A DNA stretch of 64,000 nt. It comes from Flavobacterium branchiicola. Lineage in GTDB: Bacteria; Bacteroidota; Bacteroidia; Flavobacteriales; Flavobacteriaceae. Below are positions 54,707-64,000 of the stretch, piece by piece (position 1 is the first letter of the stretch; the number at the start of each line of letters is the position of its first letter). Where the stretch lies: assembly GCF_018383905.1 (NCBI RefSeq), contig NZ_JAGYWA010000005.1, forward strand, positions 310,001 through 374,000, written 5' to 3'. The position numbers were made by a program, and so were the translations under genes. The notes under the pieces were generated by a model. It was not told the origin of the DNA and made no database searches. It saw only the letters and a list, made by a program, of their open reading frames with translations.

Positions 54707-55114
54707 ATGGCCCCAACTATAAAAAAATATTTTATTTATATTATATTTTTGGTTTCGCCTATAGCAATAAATGCACAGAATTCAACAGGAAAAACAGTAG
54801 TTTCTCCAGATTCTTTATGCAAAGCAATGGCGTTTAGCAACAACCAAAATAACAATTCAGCTGGTGTTTCTATCAGCAAATTAGATCATTCTAATCAGCC
54901 TATAGTAGGGCTATCCACCCCCGAGGATAGCCTTATTATCGCGCCTGGTGATAAGAATCTATCTACAGAGTGTAACGAAAACAAATTACTTTCTGCAACG
55001 TATTCTGTTCTTGCAAAAGACATTATCGAGAATTACAAGTATGATTTTTCGGAAACATTTATTGATATTTTGTTTTTTGAGAATATAGATTTAGCAAGAA
55101 CACGCACTATATGA
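54707..55114 (+). CDS. Small secreted protein of unknown function
   Basis: A 135-residue protein with a signal peptide (KYFIYIIFLVSPIAINAQ). The mature part is polar and low in recognisable motif (PDSLCKAMAFSNNQNNNSAG ... YSVLAKDIIENYKYDFSETFIDILFFENIDLARTR). Its stop overlaps the next start by 4 bp, so translation of the two is coupled. Confidence 0.6.
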   Translation: MAPTIKKYFIYIIFLVSPIAINAQNSTGKTVVSPDSLCKAMAFSNNQNNNSAGVSISKLDHSNQPIVGLSTPEDSLIIAPGDKNLSTECNENKLLSATYSVLAKDIIENYKYDFSETFIDILFFENIDLARTRTI

Positions 55115-56568
55115 TTCAGAAAACTACTTTGTCTTTTTCTAAAATTTTATTTCTATTTGGTATAATTCTGTTTACTAAATCGAGCCTGCACGCGCAAACA
55201 AAATCAATTAGCCCTCAACAATTAGGCTTTGACAGAATTTGTGCAGGCCCGGATGGAAACGATTATAGCGCTACTTTTACCTATGCAGGATTTCCGGCAG
55301 GAACAGTATTTGTTGTCGAACTTTCGACCAATAATTTTACAACTATTGTTACCACAAATACAATTAGTGTTTCTGATCCGGCTGCGAATCAAAAAACGAT
55401 TAACTTTTCTGTTCCTACAGATTTAGCCGGATCAGATAGTTATAGTCTTAGAGTTTCAACTACTGGTTTTTCAAGTCCTAAGTTTGTTTCTTTTGGATTA
55501 AAAACGTCTTTCCCTATCTATTACAGAGCACATAACAATCAATACACTATTAATAATTTTAATGGTACAGCTACTTTTTGTGCTGGTGGTAGTTATTTGT
55601 TAAGTATCGATGCTGATTCAACAACCCCGTTAAATGATTCTCCTTTAAAGTTTAAGTTTTTAACTTATAACTGGTTTAAAGATAATGGACCTGTAACGCC
55701 TCCAACCCTTGTGGCTGGAGCGACAGGATCAACCTATGCTGTAACTGCAGAAGGAGTTTATTACGCAGAAACAAATTATGGTACTTGTACATCAGAGTCA
55801 TATTCAAACCGTGTTACGGTTAGCTCTTCGGCTTCTGGTTCTGCAGTTACCATCAACTCAAATTTAGGAAACCCATTTTGTTCTACAGGTTCAGGAACTA
55901 TTTTAACAGCTACAGACGGTAATAAGTTCTTGTGGAAAAAAGATGGTGTAAATTTCCCTGGTGGAACAACACGCAGTATTACAACAAATGAGGCTGGAAT
56001 TTATACAGTAGAAGTAGATTTTGGTGGTTGTGTATCTTCTGGTTCAATTGATTTAAAAAGTAATAGTTTTTCAGCTAGTATAGATGTCCCGGATACTAGT
56101 TCGATAGACGAAGGAGAAACGATTAATGTTTCTATAACTACAGATGCTGTTAGCCCGACTTTTGAATGGTTTTTAAACGGAAATGCCATTGCTGGCGCCA
56201 ACGGCAATTCATATGTGGTAGCCGTACCAGGTAATTATAAGGCAAAAGTTTCTCAGTCAACAGGTTGTTCAAGTTCTAAAGAATTTGATTTTAAAGTTAC
56301 CGGACCGGCGCAGCCAACATCAGTAATTCAAAACATTGTCAAGTTAAGCGGCCAGCATCCATATTGGAACATTCCGGACGTTTACAAGAACGAAAACACC
56401 AAAGTAATAATATTAAGCTCCAATGGCGATAAAGTTCTAGATGTTGTCAATTATCAAGGTGATTGGCCACAAAATGCAATTGATTTTAAAAATGTAAATC
56501 CAGTATATTACTATGTCATTCAAGCAGACACAGGTGAAAAAAAAGGATCAATAACTGTGATAAAATAA
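55111..56568 (+). CDS. sprC: SprC-like secreted protein with Ig/PKD-type repeats and CHU_C-like end
   Basis: A 485-residue protein: signal peptide (residues 1-29), then repeated Ig/PKD-like modules (about residues 30-400, e.g. VAGATGSTYAVTAEGVYYAETNYGTC and GSGTILTATDGNKFLWKKDG). The last 80 residues (WNIPDVYKNENTKVIILSSNGDKVLDVVNYQGDWP ... YYYVIQADTGEKKGSITVIK) match the gliding-motility C-terminal domain (CHU_C, type B sorting), but the usual TPNGDGIND stretch is replaced by LSGQHPY. By position it fits sprC of F. johnsoniae; the symbol is by analogy. Confidence 0.65.
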   Translation: MIQKTTLSFSKILFLFGIILFTKSSLHAQTKSISPQQLGFDRICAGPDGNDYSATFTYAGFPAGTVFVVELSTNNFTTIVTTNTISVSDPAANQKTINFSVPTDLAGSDSYSLRVSTTGFSSPKFVSFGLKTSFPIYYRAHNNQYTINNFNGTATFCAGGSYLLSIDADSTTPLNDSPLKFKFLTYNWFKDNGPVTPPTLVAGATGSTYAVTAEGVYYAETNYGTCTSESYSNRVTVSSSASGSAVTINSNLGNPFCSTGSGTILTATDGNKFLWKKDGVNFPGGTTRSITTNEAGIYTVEVDFGGCVSSGSIDLKSNSFSASIDVPDTSSIDEGETINVSITTDAVSPTFEWFLNGNAIAGANGNSYVVAVPGNYKAKVSQSTGCSSSKEFDFKVTGPAQPTSVIQNIVKLSGQHPYWNIPDVYKNENTKVIILSSNGDKVLDVVNYQGDWPQNAIDFKNVNPVYYYVIQADTGEKKGSITVIK

Positions 56569-56569
56569 T

Positions 56570-59500
56570 ATGAAGAAAATCCTACTATTCATAACTTTAT
56601 TTTACGGTTTTTCAAATGTACTCTATTCCCAGGATAAAACTGAGAATGGAGTTGTTTCGTTTTCATTACCTATAAGAAATTCATTAAAGTTTAATCGATA
56701 TTTAATTAACCCTGCATTTAGTTTTGTGAGAGAAACTAACGCTTATGCAAGTTTCTATAACAAAAGACAATGGGTACAATTTGAAAATGCGCCACAAACG
56801 TATTTGGTAAATTACTCCGGTCGTTTTAGAGAAAATGAAGCATTCGCATTTGGTTTATTTCAGCAGAATTATGGTTTAATGACTGTTTTTGGCGGAATCG
56901 GGAATTTTGCTCACAACATTGTTTTGCAGGAAGACAGTAATTTAACTTTTGGTATGAACGTCGGAATCTACCAAAGTGGTCTTAACAAAGGAAAAATTGT
57001 ATCTGATGATGTTGAAATTTTGAATGGAGATTATCCTTCAAATACTTTACTTACTGTTAATCCAGGTATCAATTACGGAACTACGTTTCTTGATTTTGGA
57101 TTATCGGTTAACAATTTAATTCTTTACAATTTTGGTTCAGGTGTAGTAAAAGAAGATCCGGAAAGAGCGATCGAATTACACGCAATGTATACAGGATATA
57201 TTGATACTTATGGTTTCTTTGACAGAAGTAAATTTTCCGGTATTATAAAAACGGAAATCAAAAAAGATAAAACAGTTATTTCCGGACTAGGTATGCTAAC
57301 GTTACAACAAGGAGTTTGGGCGCAGGCAGGTTACAATACTTTATACGGAGTTTCAGCAGGTTTAGGGGTTAATATTTCACCTAGCATTGCAATTGAATAT
57401 AATTATGAAAGAGGAATGGGCAATTTTGCAAACATGGGACCTTCTCATGAATTTGCAATTGCTTACCGATTTAAAAATAGAAATTACTATTACGGAGATG
57501 AAGAAGAAGGTTCTATAATAGATCCATCGAGACCAAAACCGGTACCAGCAAAACCAAAATCGGCTGCTACGCAAGTTGACAGAACTGAGATCGCAGAAAA
57601 GAACAGACTTGCTGCAGAAGCAAAAGCGGTAGCCGATGCAGAAGCAAAACAAGCACGATTAGCAGCTGCTGAAAAAGTTAAGGCAGATGCCGAAGCTGCG
57701 AGATTAAAATTATTGGCAGACAATAAAGCAAAAGCGGATGCTGCCGAAGCTCAAAAATTAAAATTAGCTGCAGATTCAAAAGCAACAGTTGATGCTGCTG
57801 AAGCACAAAAATTAAAACTAGCTGCAGATGCAAAAGCAAAAGCAGATGCTGCTGCTGCTGCAAGAACACAAACAGCGACAACAAACAGAGCAGTTGGTGC
57901 AGAACAAAAAACGCAAGCACAATTAGCTGCAGATAAAGTAAGAGCAGATGCTGAGGCACGCAGAATAAAATTAGCTGCCGATAATAAAGCAAGGGTTGAT
58001 GCTGCGGCGGCTGCAAGAGCACAAGCAATTGCAAACAAACCGACAGCAACAGCAGAACAAAAAGCACAAGCACAATTAGCGGCTGATAAAGTTAAAGCCG
58101 ATGCTGAGGCGCAAAAATTAAAACTAGCTGCAGATGCAAAAGCAAAAGCCGATGCTGAAGCAACAAAAGCACAAGTAGCTGCAAATAAACCAGCAGCAGC
58201 ACCACAAAAAACACAAGCACAATTAGCAGCAGAAAAAGCGAAAGCCGATGCTGAAGCATTAAGAGTTAAGTTAGCTGCAGATGCAAAAGCAAAAGCAGAT
58301 GCTGCCGAAGCGAAGAGAAAAGCAGATGTAAAAGCAAAAGCTGAAGCTGCCGATTTACAGTCAATTTTAGCTGCTGATGCAAAAGCAAAAGCAGACTCAG
58401 ATGCTTATCAGGCTAAACTTGCTGCTGAAGCTAAATTAAAAGCCGCTGAGACCGCAAAAACGAAAGCGAATATAGATGCGGCCAACAAAGCAAAATTAGC
58501 TGCTGACGCGAAAGCTAAAGCGGCAGAAGAAGCTGCATTAAAAGAAAAATTAGCTGCTGATGCAAAAACAAAAGCAGATGCAGAAGCAAGACAAGCTCTT
58601 ATCGCTGCAGAAGCATTAAAATCAAAACAAGCCGCTGAAGCAAAAGTTAAAGCAGAAGAAGATGCACGTCAGGCTAAACTTGCTGCCGATGCAAAAGCCA
58701 AAGTAGATGCAGAAGCATTACAAGCAAAACTAGTTGCCGATGCTAAAGCTAAAGCTGATGCGGAAGCACTTAAGATAAAACAAGCTGCAGAGGCAAAAGC
58801 AAAAGCTGATGAAGATGCAATTCAGGCAAAATTAGCTGCCGATGCAAAAGCCAAAGCCGATGCAGAAGCATTACAAGCAAAACTGGTTGCTGATGCAAAA
58901 GCAAAAGCTGATGCTCAAGCATTACAGGCTAAGCAAGTTGCAGACGCAAAAGTAAAAGCAGAAGAAGATGCACGTCAGGCTAAACTTGTTGCTGATGCGA
59001 AAGCAAAAGCCGATGCAGAAGCATTGCAAGCAAAATTAGCTGCTGATGCCAAAGCCAAAGCAGATGCAGAAGCGCTTAAAGTAAAAGAAGTACAGGAAGC
59101 AAAAGCAAAAGTGGAAGAAGAAGCTCGTCAGGCTAAATTAGCAGCCGATGCAAAAGCTAAAGCAGATGCTGAAGCATTACAAGCAAAATTAGCTGCAGAT
59201 GCGAAAGCAAAAGCGGATATGGAAGCATTACAAGCAAAACTAATTGCAGATGCAAGAGTTAAAGCTGATGCAGAAGCAACTGCAAAAGCAAAAGCCGATG
59301 CCGAAGCGAAACAATTACAGTTAGCTGAAGAAGCACGTCAGGCGAAATTAGAAGCTGATACAAAAGCTAAAGCGGATGCAGCAGCATTACAAGCAAAATT
59401 AGCAGCCGATGCAAAAGCAAAAGCAGATGCGGAAGCACTTAAAATAAAAGAAGCTCAGGAAGCAAAAGCAAAAGCAGATGAAGAAGTTCGTCAGGCGAAA

Positions 59501-61477
59501 TTAGCTGCAGATGCAAAAGCAAAAGCTGACGCAGAAGCATTACAAGCGAAATTAGCTGCCGATGCAAAAGCTAAAGCCGATGCGGAAGCACTTAAAATAA
59601 AAGAAGCTCAGGAAGTAAAAGCAAAAGCAGATGAAGAAGTTCGTCAGGCGAAATTAGCTGCGGATGCTAAAGCCAAAGCTGACGCAGAAGCATTACAAGC
59701 AAAATTAGCTGCCGATACAAAAGCAAAAGCTGATGCAGAAGCACTTAAAATAAAAGAAGCTCAGGAAGCAAAAGCTAAAGTTGAAGAAGAAGCTCGTCAG
59801 GCGAAATTAGCTTCAGACGCAAAAGCAAAAGCGGACGCAGAAGCATTACAAGCAAAACTTGCAGCTGATGCAAAAGCAAAAGCAGATATGCAGGCATTAC
59901 AAGCACAATTACTTGCAGATGCAAAAGTGAAAGCCGATGCTGAAGCTACTGCAAAAGCAAAAGCCGATGCTGAAGCAAGAGAATTACAATTAGCTGAAGA
60001 AGCTCGTCAGGCAAAATTAGCCGCCGATGCAAAAGCCAAAGCAGACGCAGAAGCATTACAGGCTAAACAAGTAGCGGATGCAAAAGCCAAAGCAGATGCT
60101 GTAGCATTGCAAGCAAAACTAGCAGCCGATGCAAAAGCCAAAGCAGATGCAGAAGCATTACAAGCAAAACTTGCAGCTGATGCAAAAGCTAAGGCAGATG
60201 CTGTAGCATTGCAGGCAAAATTAGCAGCAGACGCAAAAGCGAAAGCCGACGCAGAAGCATTACAAGCGAAACAAGCAGCTGAAGAAAAAGCAAAAGCGGA
60301 TGCAGAAGCAGTACAAGCAAAATTAGCAGCTGATGCAAAAGCCAAAGCAGATGCTGTAGCATTGCAAGCTAAACTAGCAGCCGATGCAAAAGCAAAAGCG
60401 GATGCAGAAGCATTACAAGCTAAACAAGCTGCAGATGCTAAAGTAAAAGCAGATGAAGAAGCTCGTCAGGCTAAATTGAATGCCGATGCAAAAGCAAAAG
60501 CAGATGCAGAAGCATTACAGGCGAGACTTGCAGAAGAAGCAGAATTAAAAGCAAAATTAGCAGCTGATGCTGCTGCGGTTGCCGCAGCAAAAGTAGCTTC
60601 AACGCCAAAAGACGATACAGCAAAAGCAATAGATAATTTAACACTATCTATAGAAAGTGCAAGTAAAACGCAAAAAGATTTATTGGCACAGTTTAATACA
60701 ACTGTAGCTAGTAAACAAAGAGATTTGAATGACTTGAAGGAAGAGAATGATTTAAGTGAAAAAGGAATCTACAAAGAACCAAAACCATTTAAAAGTGTTG
60801 CTGCAGAAAACAGTCAGTTAGAAGCTTTAAAAGCACAACTTGCAGAGGCGAACAAAAATCAAAAAGATGAAATTGCCCGATTGACAAACCTGTATAATGA
60901 CAGACTTAAAAAAGTTCCTAATAAAAATGATGCATTAAACAGAGCGTATCTTGAAAAGATAAACGAATTGAAAGCTGCTCAGTTGAAAATGGAAGAAGAC
61001 AGTGCAACGTTACTTTCGAATTTAGAGCGTATTAAAACGGAAACTGAAATCGAGAAAAAACGTAGAATTAAACGTGCTGCTTACGAAAACGATCAGGGAA
61101 GATACAATCAGGATATTGCAGCCCTTAAACGTATTAAGGAAACTACAAAATTGAGTAGTACACCACTTACAGCAAGAGATTTTGATTTTGGAGAAGACCA
61201 GTCAAATATGCAGATTATCAAGAACATTAAAAATTCTGAAAATGGATATTACATGATTGTTGCAGTTCATAATAGTATTGAGAAAAGAGATCAATTCCTG
61301 ACAAAAGCCGTTGCGGCAGGACGTTCAGATATTAATTTCTTTTACAATGTAACAACAAGTAAATATTATATCTACTACGAAAAATTCGATGGTTTGCAGG
61401 AAGCAACAAAAGCATTGGAGGCAAAAGGGAATAAGCCATACAATAGTAAAATGGCCATCGTAAAAGTGGAGAATTAA
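56570..61477 (+). CDS. sprD: SprD-like: PorP/SprF barrel fused to TolA-like repeats and SPOR-like tail
   Basis: A 1635-residue protein. Signal peptide (MKKILLFITLFYGFSNVLYSQ), then a PorP/SprF-type outer-membrane beta-barrel (about residues 22-305: LPIRNSLKFNRYLINPAFSFV, FGLFQQNYGLMTVFGGIGNFA, PGINYGTTFLDFGLSVNNLI, SIAIEYNYERGMGNF). Residues 330-1340 are an Ala/Lys/Asp/Glu helical repeat with a 17-residue unit (ALQAKLAADAKAKADAE), like TolA domain II. A coiled coil follows to about residue 1520. Residues 1555-1635 (GYYMIVAVHNSIEKRDQFLTK ...) look SPOR-like. It starts 1 bp after the previous stop. Placement before the SprB-like gene suggests SprD; the symbol is by analogy. Confidence 0.7.
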   Translation: MKKILLFITLFYGFSNVLYSQDKTENGVVSFSLPIRNSLKFNRYLINPAFSFVRETNAYASFYNKRQWVQFENAPQTYLVNYSGRFRENEAFAFGLFQQNYGLMTVFGGIGNFAHNIVLQEDSNLTFGMNVGIYQSGLNKGKIVSDDVEILNGDYPSNTLLTVNPGINYGTTFLDFGLSVNNLILYNFGSGVVKEDPERAIELHAMYTGYIDTYGFFDRSKFSGIIKTEIKKDKTVISGLGMLTLQQGVWAQAGYNTLYGVSAGLGVNISPSIAIEYNYERGMGNFANMGPSHEFAIAYRFKNRNYYYGDEEEGSIIDPSRPKPVPAKPKSAATQVDRTEIAEKNRLAAEAKAVADAEAKQARLAAAEKVKADAEAARLKLLADNKAKADAAEAQKLKLAADSKATVDAAEAQKLKLAADAKAKADAAAAARTQTATTNRAVGAEQKTQAQLAADKVRADAEARRIKLAADNKARVDAAAAARAQAIANKPTATAEQKAQAQLAADKVKADAEAQKLKLAADAKAKADAEATKAQVAANKPAAAPQKTQAQLAAEKAKADAEALRVKLAADAKAKADAAEAKRKADVKAKAEAADLQSILAADAKAKADSDAYQAKLAAEAKLKAAETAKTKANIDAANKAKLAADAKAKAAEEAALKEKLAADAKTKADAEARQALIAAEALKSKQAAEAKVKAEEDARQAKLAADAKAKVDAEALQAKLVADAKAKADAEALKIKQAAEAKAKADEDAIQAKLAADAKAKADAEALQAKLVADAKAKADAQALQAKQVADAKVKAEEDARQAKLVADAKAKADAEALQAKLAADAKAKADAEALKVKEVQEAKAKVEEEARQAKLAADAKAKADAEALQAKLAADAKAKADMEALQAKLIADARVKADAEATAKAKADAEAKQLQLAEEARQAKLEADTKAKADAAALQAKLAADAKAKADAEALKIKEAQEAKAKADEEVRQAKLAADAKAKADAEALQAKLAADAKAKADAEALKIKEAQEVKAKADEEVRQAKLAADAKAKADAEALQAKLAADTKAKADAEALKIKEAQEAKAKVEEEARQAKLASDAKAKADAEALQAKLAADAKAKADMQALQAQLLADAKVKADAEATAKAKADAEARELQLAEEARQAKLAADAKAKADAEALQAKQVADAKAKADAVALQAKLAADAKAKADAEALQAKLAADAKAKADAVALQAKLAADAKAKADAEALQAKQAAEEKAKADAEAVQAKLAADAKAKADAVALQAKLAADAKAKADAEALQAKQAADAKVKADEEARQAKLNADAKAKADAEALQARLAEEAELKAKLAADAAAVAAAKVASTPKDDTAKAIDNLTLSIESASKTQKDLLAQFNTTVASKQRDLNDLKEENDLSEKGIYKEPKPFKSVAAENSQLEALKAQLAEANKNQKDEIARLTNLYNDRLKKVPNKNDALNRAYLEKINELKAAQLKMEEDSATLLSNLERIKTETEIEKKRRIKRAAYENDQGRYNQDIAALKRIKETTKLSSTPLTARDFDFGEDQSNMQIIKNIKNSENGYYMIVAVHNSIEKRDQFLTKAVAAGRSDINFFYNVTTSKYYIYYEKFDGLQEATKALEAKGNKPYNSKMAIVKVEN
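57590..60590 (+). repeat. 51-bp coding repeat array within the sprD-like gene
   Basis: About 55 degenerate copies of a 51-bp unit encoding 17 residues of the AKLAADAKAKADAEALQ type. Units differ at synonymous positions (GCA/GCT/GCC) and in the last three residues (EAL, EDA, EEA). The array could expand or contract by recombination without breaking the frame. Confidence 0.85.
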
Positions 61478-61612: not shown

Positions 61613-64000
61613 ATGAAAAAACCTACTATTTTTAAAGCATTAATTGCAGTCGTATTTTTATTGTTAAGTTTATCTTCCTATTCTCAGGTAAGAGAAGGTT
61701 TCAAAACAGAATATAGCGCCAGTTTAAATGGAGATATTTTGGTGATTGGAAACAACATCTTAAACAGAGATGAAAATAAAAGAAACCAGCGTGCAAATGA
61801 TGCCTTCGACGATGTAAGTAAGGTGAACGACAATTTCGAAATGAAATATATCGATATTGACGGCGATGGCAACACCTTTAATTCAAGTTCTGCGACACTA
61901 GTAATTCCCCAGGCTAGTCGAACTTGTTACGAGATTGTATACGCTGCTTTGTATTGGGCAGGAACCTATCAGGGTGCCGACCGTAGCAAAATTGCTAATG
62001 TGAAATTAAAAACACCTAAAGCTGGTGCAGCCTACAAGCCCTTAACAGGTACAATCATTTATGATGAAGGAAAACCCGGAGTGACCAATGTATATGCTTC
62101 AAAACCATACGCGTGTTTTAAAGAAATTACAGATGAAGTTAAAGATGCTAAAGACGGTGTTTATACCGTAGCAGATATAATGACTTCTGAAGGAAAAGTG
62201 ACACCAGGAGGTAATTCAGGTGGATGGTCTATTTTTGTAGTTTATAAAGATCCGTTATTACCAAACAAGTTTATCACAAGTTTTAATGGTTTTGGTATTA
62301 TCAGAGCGAGTGATCCACCGTTGGTGATTCCTGTTTCTGGTTTTAGAACGAATCCGTTTGGAGATGTAAATGCAAAACTGGCTTTTGCTGCGTTAGAAGG
62401 TGATGCTTCTTTAAAAGGAGACGGACTTAGTATACAAGGTGCTAAATCTGCAACAGCAGGTAATATTTCTTCACTGGTAAGACCAATTGCACCAGGTACT
62501 CCAGGTACACCAAACTTTTTTAATAGTACAATTACCGATGGTGATGTTATTTTGGCGGGTCGTACCCCTGGGAGTATAAACACTTTGGGTTATGATACCG
62601 GTGTAGTAAAAATTGACAATACAGGTAATACGATTATACAGAATAATGAAACAGATGCTAATCTTACGATTAACACTTCTCAGGATTCTTATTATATGTT
62701 TTTTACTGCCTTATCAGTAGAAATTATTGCGCCAAAAATTGTATTGCGCAAAAATGTACTGGATACAAATGATAAAAATATCGGCGCTCAATCAGTAAAT
62801 CTGGATCAGGAACTTCGATATGAACTTAAGTTTAAGAATGAAGGAAATGATAGTGCTAAAGGTTTTACAATTACCGATGTTCTCCCACAAAATGTAATTT
62901 TTAATGGGCTTTCAGACATCATGGTGATGGATAAAAATATTACCGCAAGCTATGATGCTGCTACCAGAACACTTTTGTTTACAGTACCAGACTATATGGT
63001 AGTTTCTAAACAAGCTGGTGGTAGTGAGTATACCATTAAATTTAAAGTTCGTGTTGTAAAAGATTGTAATGAACTAGTTGATGCTTGTTCTAACGAGATT
63101 AAAAATACGGCAGTTTCTAAATATTTTGGGGTTTTAAATACAACCAAAGAAGGATTTGGAGAGGGTAGTTATTCAACAATATCTGAGTGTAATGTTGGAG
63201 AACCTACATCAACCAATTTCTTAGTAGGTATAGACAAATGTTTATTTAGCAGAGATGTTTCTTTATGTGGTACTGCTGTTTTAACAGCTGCGTTGGGTTA
63301 TACTACTTATGTATGGAAAGACCAAAACGGTGTTATTTTCGGTGGTAATAACAGACAGGTTACTGTAAATAAAGAAGGAGTCTATACCGTTGAGAATAGC
63401 GGTGCTGTAAATTGTAAACCAATTAAGCAGACTTTTAATGTAACGGACTACCTTAAAGGAACAATCAAAAATCCGATAAAAGGAGATAATATTGATCCTG
63501 CAACAGGAGAAGCTTATGGTTGCGTTAGGGATAAGAAACCTTTCCCAAAAATTTTCTTATGTGGTTTAAACGATAAGAGATTTATTGACACTAAAATTGT
63601 TGGTGCAACAAGTATTACATGGCAGGAAACAAAAGATGTACCGCCGGCAAGTGATCCTAATCCGGATAGCTGTCCTTACGAGGGAGCTACAAACTGGACT
63701 ACTTTAGCAACCGGACCTACATATACTGTTGACAAAGCAGGTGTATTTAGACTTTTGGTTAATTACGGTAACACTTGTGTGGTAATGCATTATTTTAATG
63801 TTTACCAAAACTTGCTTGATCCAAAAGCTGAAAAACAAGATATAATTTGTGATACAAAAGGACAAATTAGAGTTACAAACCCGCCAGAAAATTCAGGATA
63901 TGTTTATAGTCTTGACGGTATTAATTACCAACCTGAAAGTACTTTTAATAATGTTGCTGAGGGAAGTTACAAAGTTCAGATTAGACAATCTGAATTAATA
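61613..64000 (+). CDS. sprB: SprB-like giant surface adhesin, N-terminal part (cut by window edge)
   Basis: Open frame of 796 codons to the window end. Signal peptide (MKKPTIFKALIAVVFLLLS onward, cleavage after YSQ), then a secreted N-terminal region (GDILVIGNNILNRDENKRNQ ... YEIVYAALYWAGTYQGADRSKIA), a DUF11-like repeat near residues 395-490 (ELKFKNEGNDSAKGFTITDV), and Cys-containing Ig-type modules. The layout suits a type IX-secreted filamentous adhesin such as SprB, moved on the cell surface by the gliding motor. The C-terminal sorting domain is beyond the window. Confidence 0.72.
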   Translation, partial: MKKPTIFKALIAVVFLLLSLSSYSQVREGFKTEYSASLNGDILVIGNNILNRDENKRNQRANDAFDDVSKVNDNFEMKYIDIDGDGNTFNSSSATLVIPQASRTCYEIVYAALYWAGTYQGADRSKIANVKLKTPKAGAAYKPLTGTIIYDEGKPGVTNVYASKPYACFKEITDEVKDAKDGVYTVADIMTSEGKVTPGGNSGGWSIFVVYKDPLLPNKFITSFNGFGIIRASDPPLVIPVSGFRTNPFGDVNAKLAFAALEGDASLKGDGLSIQGAKSATAGNISSLVRPIAPGTPGTPNFFNSTITDGDVILAGRTPGSINTLGYDTGVVKIDNTGNTIIQNNETDANLTINTSQDSYYMFFTALSVEIIAPKIVLRKNVLDTNDKNIGAQSVNLDQELRYELKFKNEGNDSAKGFTITDVLPQNVIFNGLSDIMVMDKNITASYDAATRTLLFTVPDYMVVSKQAGGSEYTIKFKVRVVKDCNELVDACSNEIKNTAVSKYFGVLNTTKEGFGEGSYSTISECNVGEPTSTNFLVGIDKCLFSRDVSLCGTAVLTAALGYTTYVWKDQNGVIFGGNNRQVTVNKEGVYTVENSGAVNCKPIKQTFNVTDYLKGTIKNPIKGDNIDPATGEAYGCVRDKKPFPKIFLCGLNDKRFIDTKIVGATSITWQETKDVPPASDPNPDSCPYEGATNWTTLATGPTYTVDKAGVFRLLVNYGNTCVVMHYFNVYQNLLDPKAEKQDIICDTKGQIRVTNPPENSGYVYSLDGINYQPESTFNNVAEGSYKVQIRQSELI

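Follow-up and report, generated by a model that had tools for sequence, protein, structure and literature searches.

The sprC–sprD–sprB locus

The window, i.e., the whole stretch of 64,000 nucleotides of Flavobacterium branchiicola DNA analyzed here, contains at 56570–61477 of the forward strand an open reading frame (ORF) of 1635 amino acids without an internal stop. The gene order sprC–sprD–sprB–sprF is the one described for F. psychrophilum in the available part of PMC9723704; hence, this ORF is sprD of the Flavobacterium gliding operon sprC–sprD–sprB, with sprF past the window end, and its placement between SprC-like and SprB-like genes in an earlier sequence-only reading is borne out. The sprC gene (55111–56568, +; 485 aa) ends one base ahead of sprD and likely encodes a type B cargo of the type IX secretion system (T9SS), the putative signal lying at about 56350–56553. 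The sprB gene starts at 61613 (+), fills the window to 64000, and continues in the genome to 5861 aa; sprF, located 3' of it, is of the PorP type and carries a CPC tail, the C-terminal end being CPCTQSPVHD (...SNCPCTQSPVHD). A 135-aa ORF at 54707–55114 has a four-base overlap with the start of sprC, with matches in 72 of 80 Flavobacterium loci and none in L044–L082.

SprD of F. johnsoniae, for which Rhodes et al. 2011 is reportedly the founding paper, is an orthologue at the same operon place with no difference in kind from the window SprD; locus L102, labelled F. johnsoniae strain CI04, encodes a SprD of the same build (1912 aa). According to the available text of PMC9389320, spreading linked to gliding is said to need SprC and SprD, while the role of both in the gliding machinery is called unknown. 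No domain description of SprD was found in the literature searched, although one may predate ours in Rhodes et al. 2011 or in most subscription journals, which lie outside its coverage; within the same coverage, no paper was found that combines “SPOR domain,” “PorP,” and “type IX secretion.”

Build of the SprD chain

The chain begins with a signal peptide (about residues 1–21; 56570–56632, +; read by eye), followed at about residues 22–302 (56633–57475, +) by a predicted outer-membrane barrel of the PorP/SprF type. Pfam PF11751 (PorP_SprF) matches residues 37–299 with E 4.8e-42 (144.8 bits, cut-off 22.3), and TIGR03519 matches residues 1–301 over its entire length (model 1–292 of 292; 185.5 bits, cut-off 90.55). 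These two curated models settle the family, and residues 1–302 are assigned to the PorP/SprF barrels; the sequence-only reading named the family correctly but took the barrel for the N-terminal third, whereas it makes up about a fifth of the protein. The AlphaFold2 model of residues 1–330, based on the window and 40 of 66 unbroken Flavobacterium sequences (78–91% identical to the window), is poor, with a mean pLDDT of only 46.1; it has 14 strands, the number given for PorP-like barrels in the available text of PMC9143113. A Foldseek search with this low-confidence model retrieves other outer-membrane barrels, including FadL and the T9SS complex chain 8gl6_F (E 2.1e-3), and is given little weight; the barrel sequence has no match among solved structures.

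Residues ~346–1345 (57605–60604, +) form an Ala/Lys/Asp/Glu rod, predicted to be helical, with a period of 17 residues (51 bases). Its core tandem array at 58606–60519 (+) comprises 37.3 copies of a 51-base unit (Tandem Repeats Finder score 1434), and identity autocorrelation over residues 401–1345 peaks at 51, 17, and 34, in agreement with the approximately 1000 residues of 17-residue repeats noticed earlier. The fractions of Ala, Lys, and Asp/Glu in residues 346–1345 are 0.40, 0.17, and 0.18; in residues 331–1340, Ala makes up 39.5%, Gly occurs once, and Pro three times. Opposite-charge pairs at i,i+4 number 203 in residues 346–1345 vs. 68 ± 7 in shuffles, as would be seen in a single alpha-helix with salt bridges, and from the composition and this charge pattern we infer that the rod is probably one helix. 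Hydrophobic periodicity is weak (power 7.7 at 3.38 residues, shuffled 95% level 6.7) and gives no indication of a plain heptad coil. Two matches on the rod/coil, Pfam DUF2807 (E 1.7e-5, barely past the cut-off) and SlyX (E 0.045), were disregarded as probably due to low complexity or coiled coil. A 131-aa ORF antisense to the rod (57678–58073, −) is probably a by-product of the repeat.

The label “TolA-like” given to the rod earlier holds for composition, which nearly equals that of Escherichia coli TolA (residues 48–310: Ala 0.40, Lys 0.19, Asp/Glu 0.19), but not for topology, as SprD starts in the outer membrane. TolA is anchored in the inner membrane and has an end domain of another kind; its rod is about a quarter as long, with the strongest repeat lengths 37, 26, 16, and 22 instead of 17. 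Pfam lists no TolA family on SprD, the chain of which starts with a barrel and ends with a SPOR-like domain.

At the junction of the rod with the C-terminal helices lies the motif DLKEENDLSEKGIYxxPKPF (residues 1388–1407; 60731–60790, +), conserved in an alignment of 22 rod-form C-terminal regions, in which the segment ahead of the tail as a whole is strongly conserved. The AlphaFold2 model of residues 1386–1635 (window and 65 of 80 Flavobacterium loci; mean pLDDT 75.6) shows two long helices at residues 1410–1525 (60797–61144, +; fragment helices 25–63 and 70–140), and then, in the tail (residues 1552–1635; 61223–61474, +), strand-strand-helix-strand-strand-helix-strand, an order that we take to be the SPOR topology. 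Of the two structure predictions suggested by the sequence-only reading, the one covering the tail gives this order of elements, and the one covering the barrel yields its strands at low confidence only.

Structural comparisons of the tail model are weak. In VIA-align, the tail pairs with a SPOR domain from DamX (Z 5.0, over 75 residues with an rmsd of 3.1) and with that of RlpA (Z 4.2 and 4.1), the best tail row being an exported Burkholderia protein, 6ozd, at Z 5.7 (also weak), and helices fill most rows. In Foldseek, the RlpA SPOR domain occupies ranks 11 and 12 (E 1.7) behind small folds of other kinds, with nothing below E 0.001. Against solved structures, the tail sequence has no match, and the C-terminal profile gives only three weak helical ones. 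The profile searches suggested earlier gave PF11751 on the barrel, but PF05036 (Pfam SPOR) has no match at E 0.1 in the whole window SprD and thus stays short of its gathering score. SPOR is also absent among 25 of the 43 families matching the C-terminal regions of the 22 sequences, window included; ILEI matches 6 of the 22 (best E 1.7e-4).

An iterative SPOR profile that includes SPOR-positive neighbors is partly circular; hence, for homology we use only the hhalign comparison of the rod-form tails. The 22 tails aligned with 19 Bacteroidota SPOR domains, hand-chosen with near-copies, short ones, and SprD-tail-like ones left out, score 26.7 (P 1.2e-4, probability 54.5), which is moderate, not strong. 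When three E. coli SPOR domains are added, the score is 24.2, with 60 column-permuted controls of that set at 13.2 or lower; the positive control, Bacteroidota vs. E. coli SPOR domains, scores 47.9; and the rod-form tails do not match the three E. coli domains alone (P 0.68). Given the profile comparison, the model topology, and the SPOR-positive relatives described below, we regard the tail as SPOR-like but divergent: the resemblance noticed earlier stands in topology and profile, but the sequence is too distant for Pfam.

The likeness to the SPOR proteins FtsN, DamX, and RlpA lies in the predicted tail topology and in the weak structural matches to DamX and RlpA. Residues Q251, S254, W283, and R285 of E. 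coli FtsN, presumably needed for SPOR binding, were confirmed by numbering in the FtsN sequence, and none of the 22 tails keeps them at the aligned places. The same places in the 19 Bacteroidota SPOR domains retain Q in 0, W in 0, S in 3, and R in 12, so that the lack of the four residues in the tails decides nothing.

Relatives and two forms of the arm

In one family sample, a match to the tail is seen in 76 of 149 genomes, for 49 of them with E 3.3e-41 or better. From named genomes, 80 of the 327 confirmed loci were retained, almost all of which carry the label Flavobacterium; they contain 66 unbroken SprD (1193–1912 aa), eight cut by a contig end, and six split. The split genes (two ORFs each; L093, L094, L150, L154, L155, L160) hold N letters in four cases, where assembly faults in the repeat are likely. 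In the 66 unbroken proteins, the part between barrel and tail, of which approximately 125 residues are conserved helix, spans 720–1437 residues (median 1039), and all 66 have 17 as one of their three best repeat lengths; in other genera, represented by 20 loci (L062, whose barrel is broken, left out), it spans 284–524 residues with best periods of 8, 16, 19, 36, and others. Lengths of this part modulo 17 show no clear pattern by eye.

SprD-like ORFs combining the barrel and a SPOR-like domain were also found in 32 of 40 SprB-upstream regions, places hand-chosen from matches to SprB-like genes; the eight regions lacking one (L183, L186, L192, L199, L201–L204) perhaps belong to paralogous adhesins. 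In many Flavobacteriaceae, SprD at the same locus is rodless, with two or three tandem SPOR-like domains in place of the rod. Such domain numbers occur in 28 of 32 rodless proteins, drawn only in part from these regions; the 28 have 658–901 aa and a spacer of 90–217 residues, and a single SPOR-like domain was detected in the other four, namely three L074 paralogues and L167. At L074:1939–6534, three tandem barrel-plus-SPOR-like paralogues lie downstream of a SprC-like gene.

Given the rodless SprD at the same locus, the basic build can do without a rod. The sequence-only reading had held that orthologues lacking the rod in the same role would speak against it: rodless orthologues exist, the sameness of role being suggested by synteny only. 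The rodless form, together with the differing lengths and periods of the middle part, is what one would also expect if the rod were a neutral expanding repeat, grown by slippage, with only the barrel and the tail of importance. However, the middle part never falls below 720 residues in the unbroken Flavobacterium SprD proteins, each of which has the 17-residue repeat among its best three, and the i,i+4 charge pattern of the window's rod is strong, so that neutral expansion appears quite improbable to us.

In a barrel tree of 62 sequences, the 26 rod-form ones form one group (support 100/98). Sequences with a barrel match below 250 residues (L062, L196) or with a cut or split SprD (L043, L063–L066) were dropped beforehand. 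L166 was rejected as a rod form (linker 44% AKDEQLR, Asn/Ser-rich by eye, outside the 26-sequence group); with L166 labelled as rod the tree needs two changes, without it the rod form is a single group. Within the group, L046 and L054 have atypical spacers (51 and 64% AKDEQLR). So either a single part of the family gained the rod or the other parts lost it, the tree being midpoint-rooted only; a tree of the SPOR copies is poorly resolved.

PF05036 was scored in three same-locus relatives of SprD, passing the cut-off of 21 bits in L178 (22.0) and L174 (43.2) and falling below it in L166. Among 32 loci scanned, three ORFs of 470–483 aa from two other families of the order combine the barrel with a Pfam-positive SPOR domain, leaving no space for a long rod.

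Relatives of the tail occur on other proteins as well. A 638-aa protein in the same genome (L010:127–2043, equal to L165:7569–9485; G000 contig C42) combines four LysM stretches with a segment at the C-terminus that is related to the tail of SprD (26% identity, E 6.4e-11); the adjacent gene product starts, by eye, with a LysM-like stretch. L077, L079, and L081 encode OmpA/PD40/carboxypeptidase-regulatory proteins, PorE-like in parts, with SPOR-like domains, one to three each, close to the N-terminus. The proteins of approximately 450 aa encoded by L069 and L070 carry HU-CCDC81 domains and, besides one Pfam-positive SPOR domain, another SPOR-like domain that stands close to the tail of SprD; L071 resembles them by profile only.

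SprC as likely type B cargo and the proposed role of SprD

The CHU_C model matches the window SprC with E 0.0014 at 19.2 bits, below the cut-off of 27, but exceeds the cut-off in all seven SprC orthologues tested; TIGR04131, the type B sorting domain, matches all seven, in one of them above its cut-off. By these signals, SprC is likely a type B T9SS substrate. In 72 of the 80 Flavobacterium loci, its gene precedes the barrel ORF by no more than 300 bases, the remaining eight, at contig ends, having neither SprC nor the barrel ORF, and a SprC ORF is present in each of the 32 SprB-upstream regions with a SprD-like ORF. In L196, which has a partial barrel match, the SprC and SprD ORFs are 624 bases apart. 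SprD thus stands beside a gene with the type B signal; this signal and the pairing of a carrier with its cargo go beyond the sequence-only reading.

A proposal in PMC9143113 (as available) has PorP-like barrels bind type B proteins and so anchor them at the cell surface, and SprF, from the same barrel family and likewise encoded beside a type B substrate gene, is the carrier of SprB; by the same logic, SprD would be the carrier of SprC. We think it fairly probable that SprD is a dedicated carrier barrel of SprC with a periplasmic arm that contacts peptidoglycan or the gliding track. The barrel would take SprC from the translocon and keep it at the cell surface, in the way that SprF keeps SprB. 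The arm would consist of a spacer followed by SPOR-like domains, one to three in number; in the Flavobacterium clade, this spacer would have developed into a long, charged rod that is probably one helix and leads to a single SPOR-like domain. By contacting its periplasmic partner, the arm may position or guide the SprC–SprD complex.

Besides the two curated barrel matches, the type B signal in the orthologues, and the adjacency, this reading is consistent with the finding that a lolA1 mutant has less SprD among its outer-membrane proteins (FC 0.05; PMC11885536, available part) and with the rodless combination of barrel and Pfam-positive SPOR domain in two other families. It is weakened by the sub-threshold CHU_C score of the window SprC and the single orthologue past the TIGR04131 cut-off, by the lack of a match of the tail to Pfam SPOR or to the E. 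coli domains alone, and by the eight SprB-upstream regions devoid of a SprD-like ORF. No report of SprD–SprC binding was found in the literature searched, in so far as its texts were available.

If straight, a helix of 1000 residues at 0.15 nm each would be approximately 150 nm long; to our knowledge, this is greater than the width of any such periplasm. The length bears on the proposal of the sequence-only reading that a single chain tethers the outer membrane to the wall, the tail binding peptidoglycan and the rod spanning the periplasm, so as to hold the gliding or secretion machinery in place. The build from barrel, rod, and SPOR-like tail, the SPOR-positive relatives of the same build, the tail relative on the LysM protein, and the proposal that PorE ties PorP to peptidoglycan in Porphyromonas gingivalis (PMC9143113, as available) agree with such a fixed tether. 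Yet the rod is not only so long when straight but also absent from the multi-SPOR form; the FtsN residues are missing from the tails (a weak point, as Bacteroidota SPOR domains are similar); and SprC is reported, in the available text of PMC12635249 citing a thesis, to move on the gliding track, which argues against a fixed wall anchor, as the latter would hinder the movement. The domain build being confirmed, the tether itself is unlikely.

The movement of SprC agrees with the carrier reading, in which SprD would most likely be mobile itself. In the division proposed in the available part of PMC9143113, mobile type B proteins are held by the barrel alone, while non-mobile ones are also tied to the wall via PorE-like proteins; a SPOR-like domain of its own combined with moving cargo does not fit neatly into this division. 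The PorP–PorE pair of P. gingivalis (PMC9143113) resembles SprD in linking a PorP-like barrel to a peptidoglycan-binding module, but there the module belongs to a protein of its own, the end of which is OmpA-like, whereas in SprD the SPOR-like module is on the same chain.

As to the track, the twin-cysteine tail of SprF is reported to form a disulfide with GldK, a protein of the track (PMC12635249, available part). SprF ends soon after the barrel in this tail; SprD, by contrast, has a long arm and, in the window, no cysteine. No periplasmic Cys-Xaa-Cys tail as in SprF was seen in SprD, while SprF of the same genome has CPC (...SNCPCTQSPVHD). Cysteines of SprD orthologues fall nearly all within the signal-peptide region: 121 of 125 distinct SprD-like proteins (127 rows minus two identical copies) have none after residue 25, the exceptions being L167, L168, L174, and L176. 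Cysteine absence as a special mark of SprD was dropped, as eight other PorP loci of the genome gave a barrel ORF in seven cases, six of the seven without cysteine after residue 22 (L003, where a different ORF was picked, and two further PorP matches left out). Since the other barrels are largely cysteine-free too, the absence means only that the SprF-type link is not available to SprD, which leaves the arm as the candidate for any link to the track or the wall.

A more specific possibility, which we consider doubtful, is that the rod and tail lie along the GldJ–GldK–GldN track in place of the disulfide of SprF, so that SprC–SprD is carried with the track. It would account for the movement of SprC (PMC12635249, available part), for a cysteine-free SprD, for the strong conservation of the segment ahead of the tail, and for the rod length, as so long a rod, if straight, has to lie sideways; on the other hand, the available main text of PMC9143113, with its SprB pull-down, does not contain the word SprD. 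Within the carrier reading, we can also imagine, with low expectation, a sideways arm on the 100 nm scale under the outer membrane, the helix of a mobile SprD carrier running along the gliding track or wall and coupling or spacing SprC complexes without the disulfide of SprF. If so, this would be a second, non-covalent way of linking outer-membrane carriers to the moving track in Bacteroidota gliding.

A carrier–cargo pair with a built-in periplasmic arm would give SprC and SprD a testable job and would set a cysteine-free carrier beside the disulfide-linked SprF, while the rod form and the multi-SPOR form offer a natural comparison of how Bacteroidota surface proteins may be linked to envelope parts, whether these move or stay fixed. 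The construction of an sprD deletion is given in the methods of PMC9870892, as far as its text is available.
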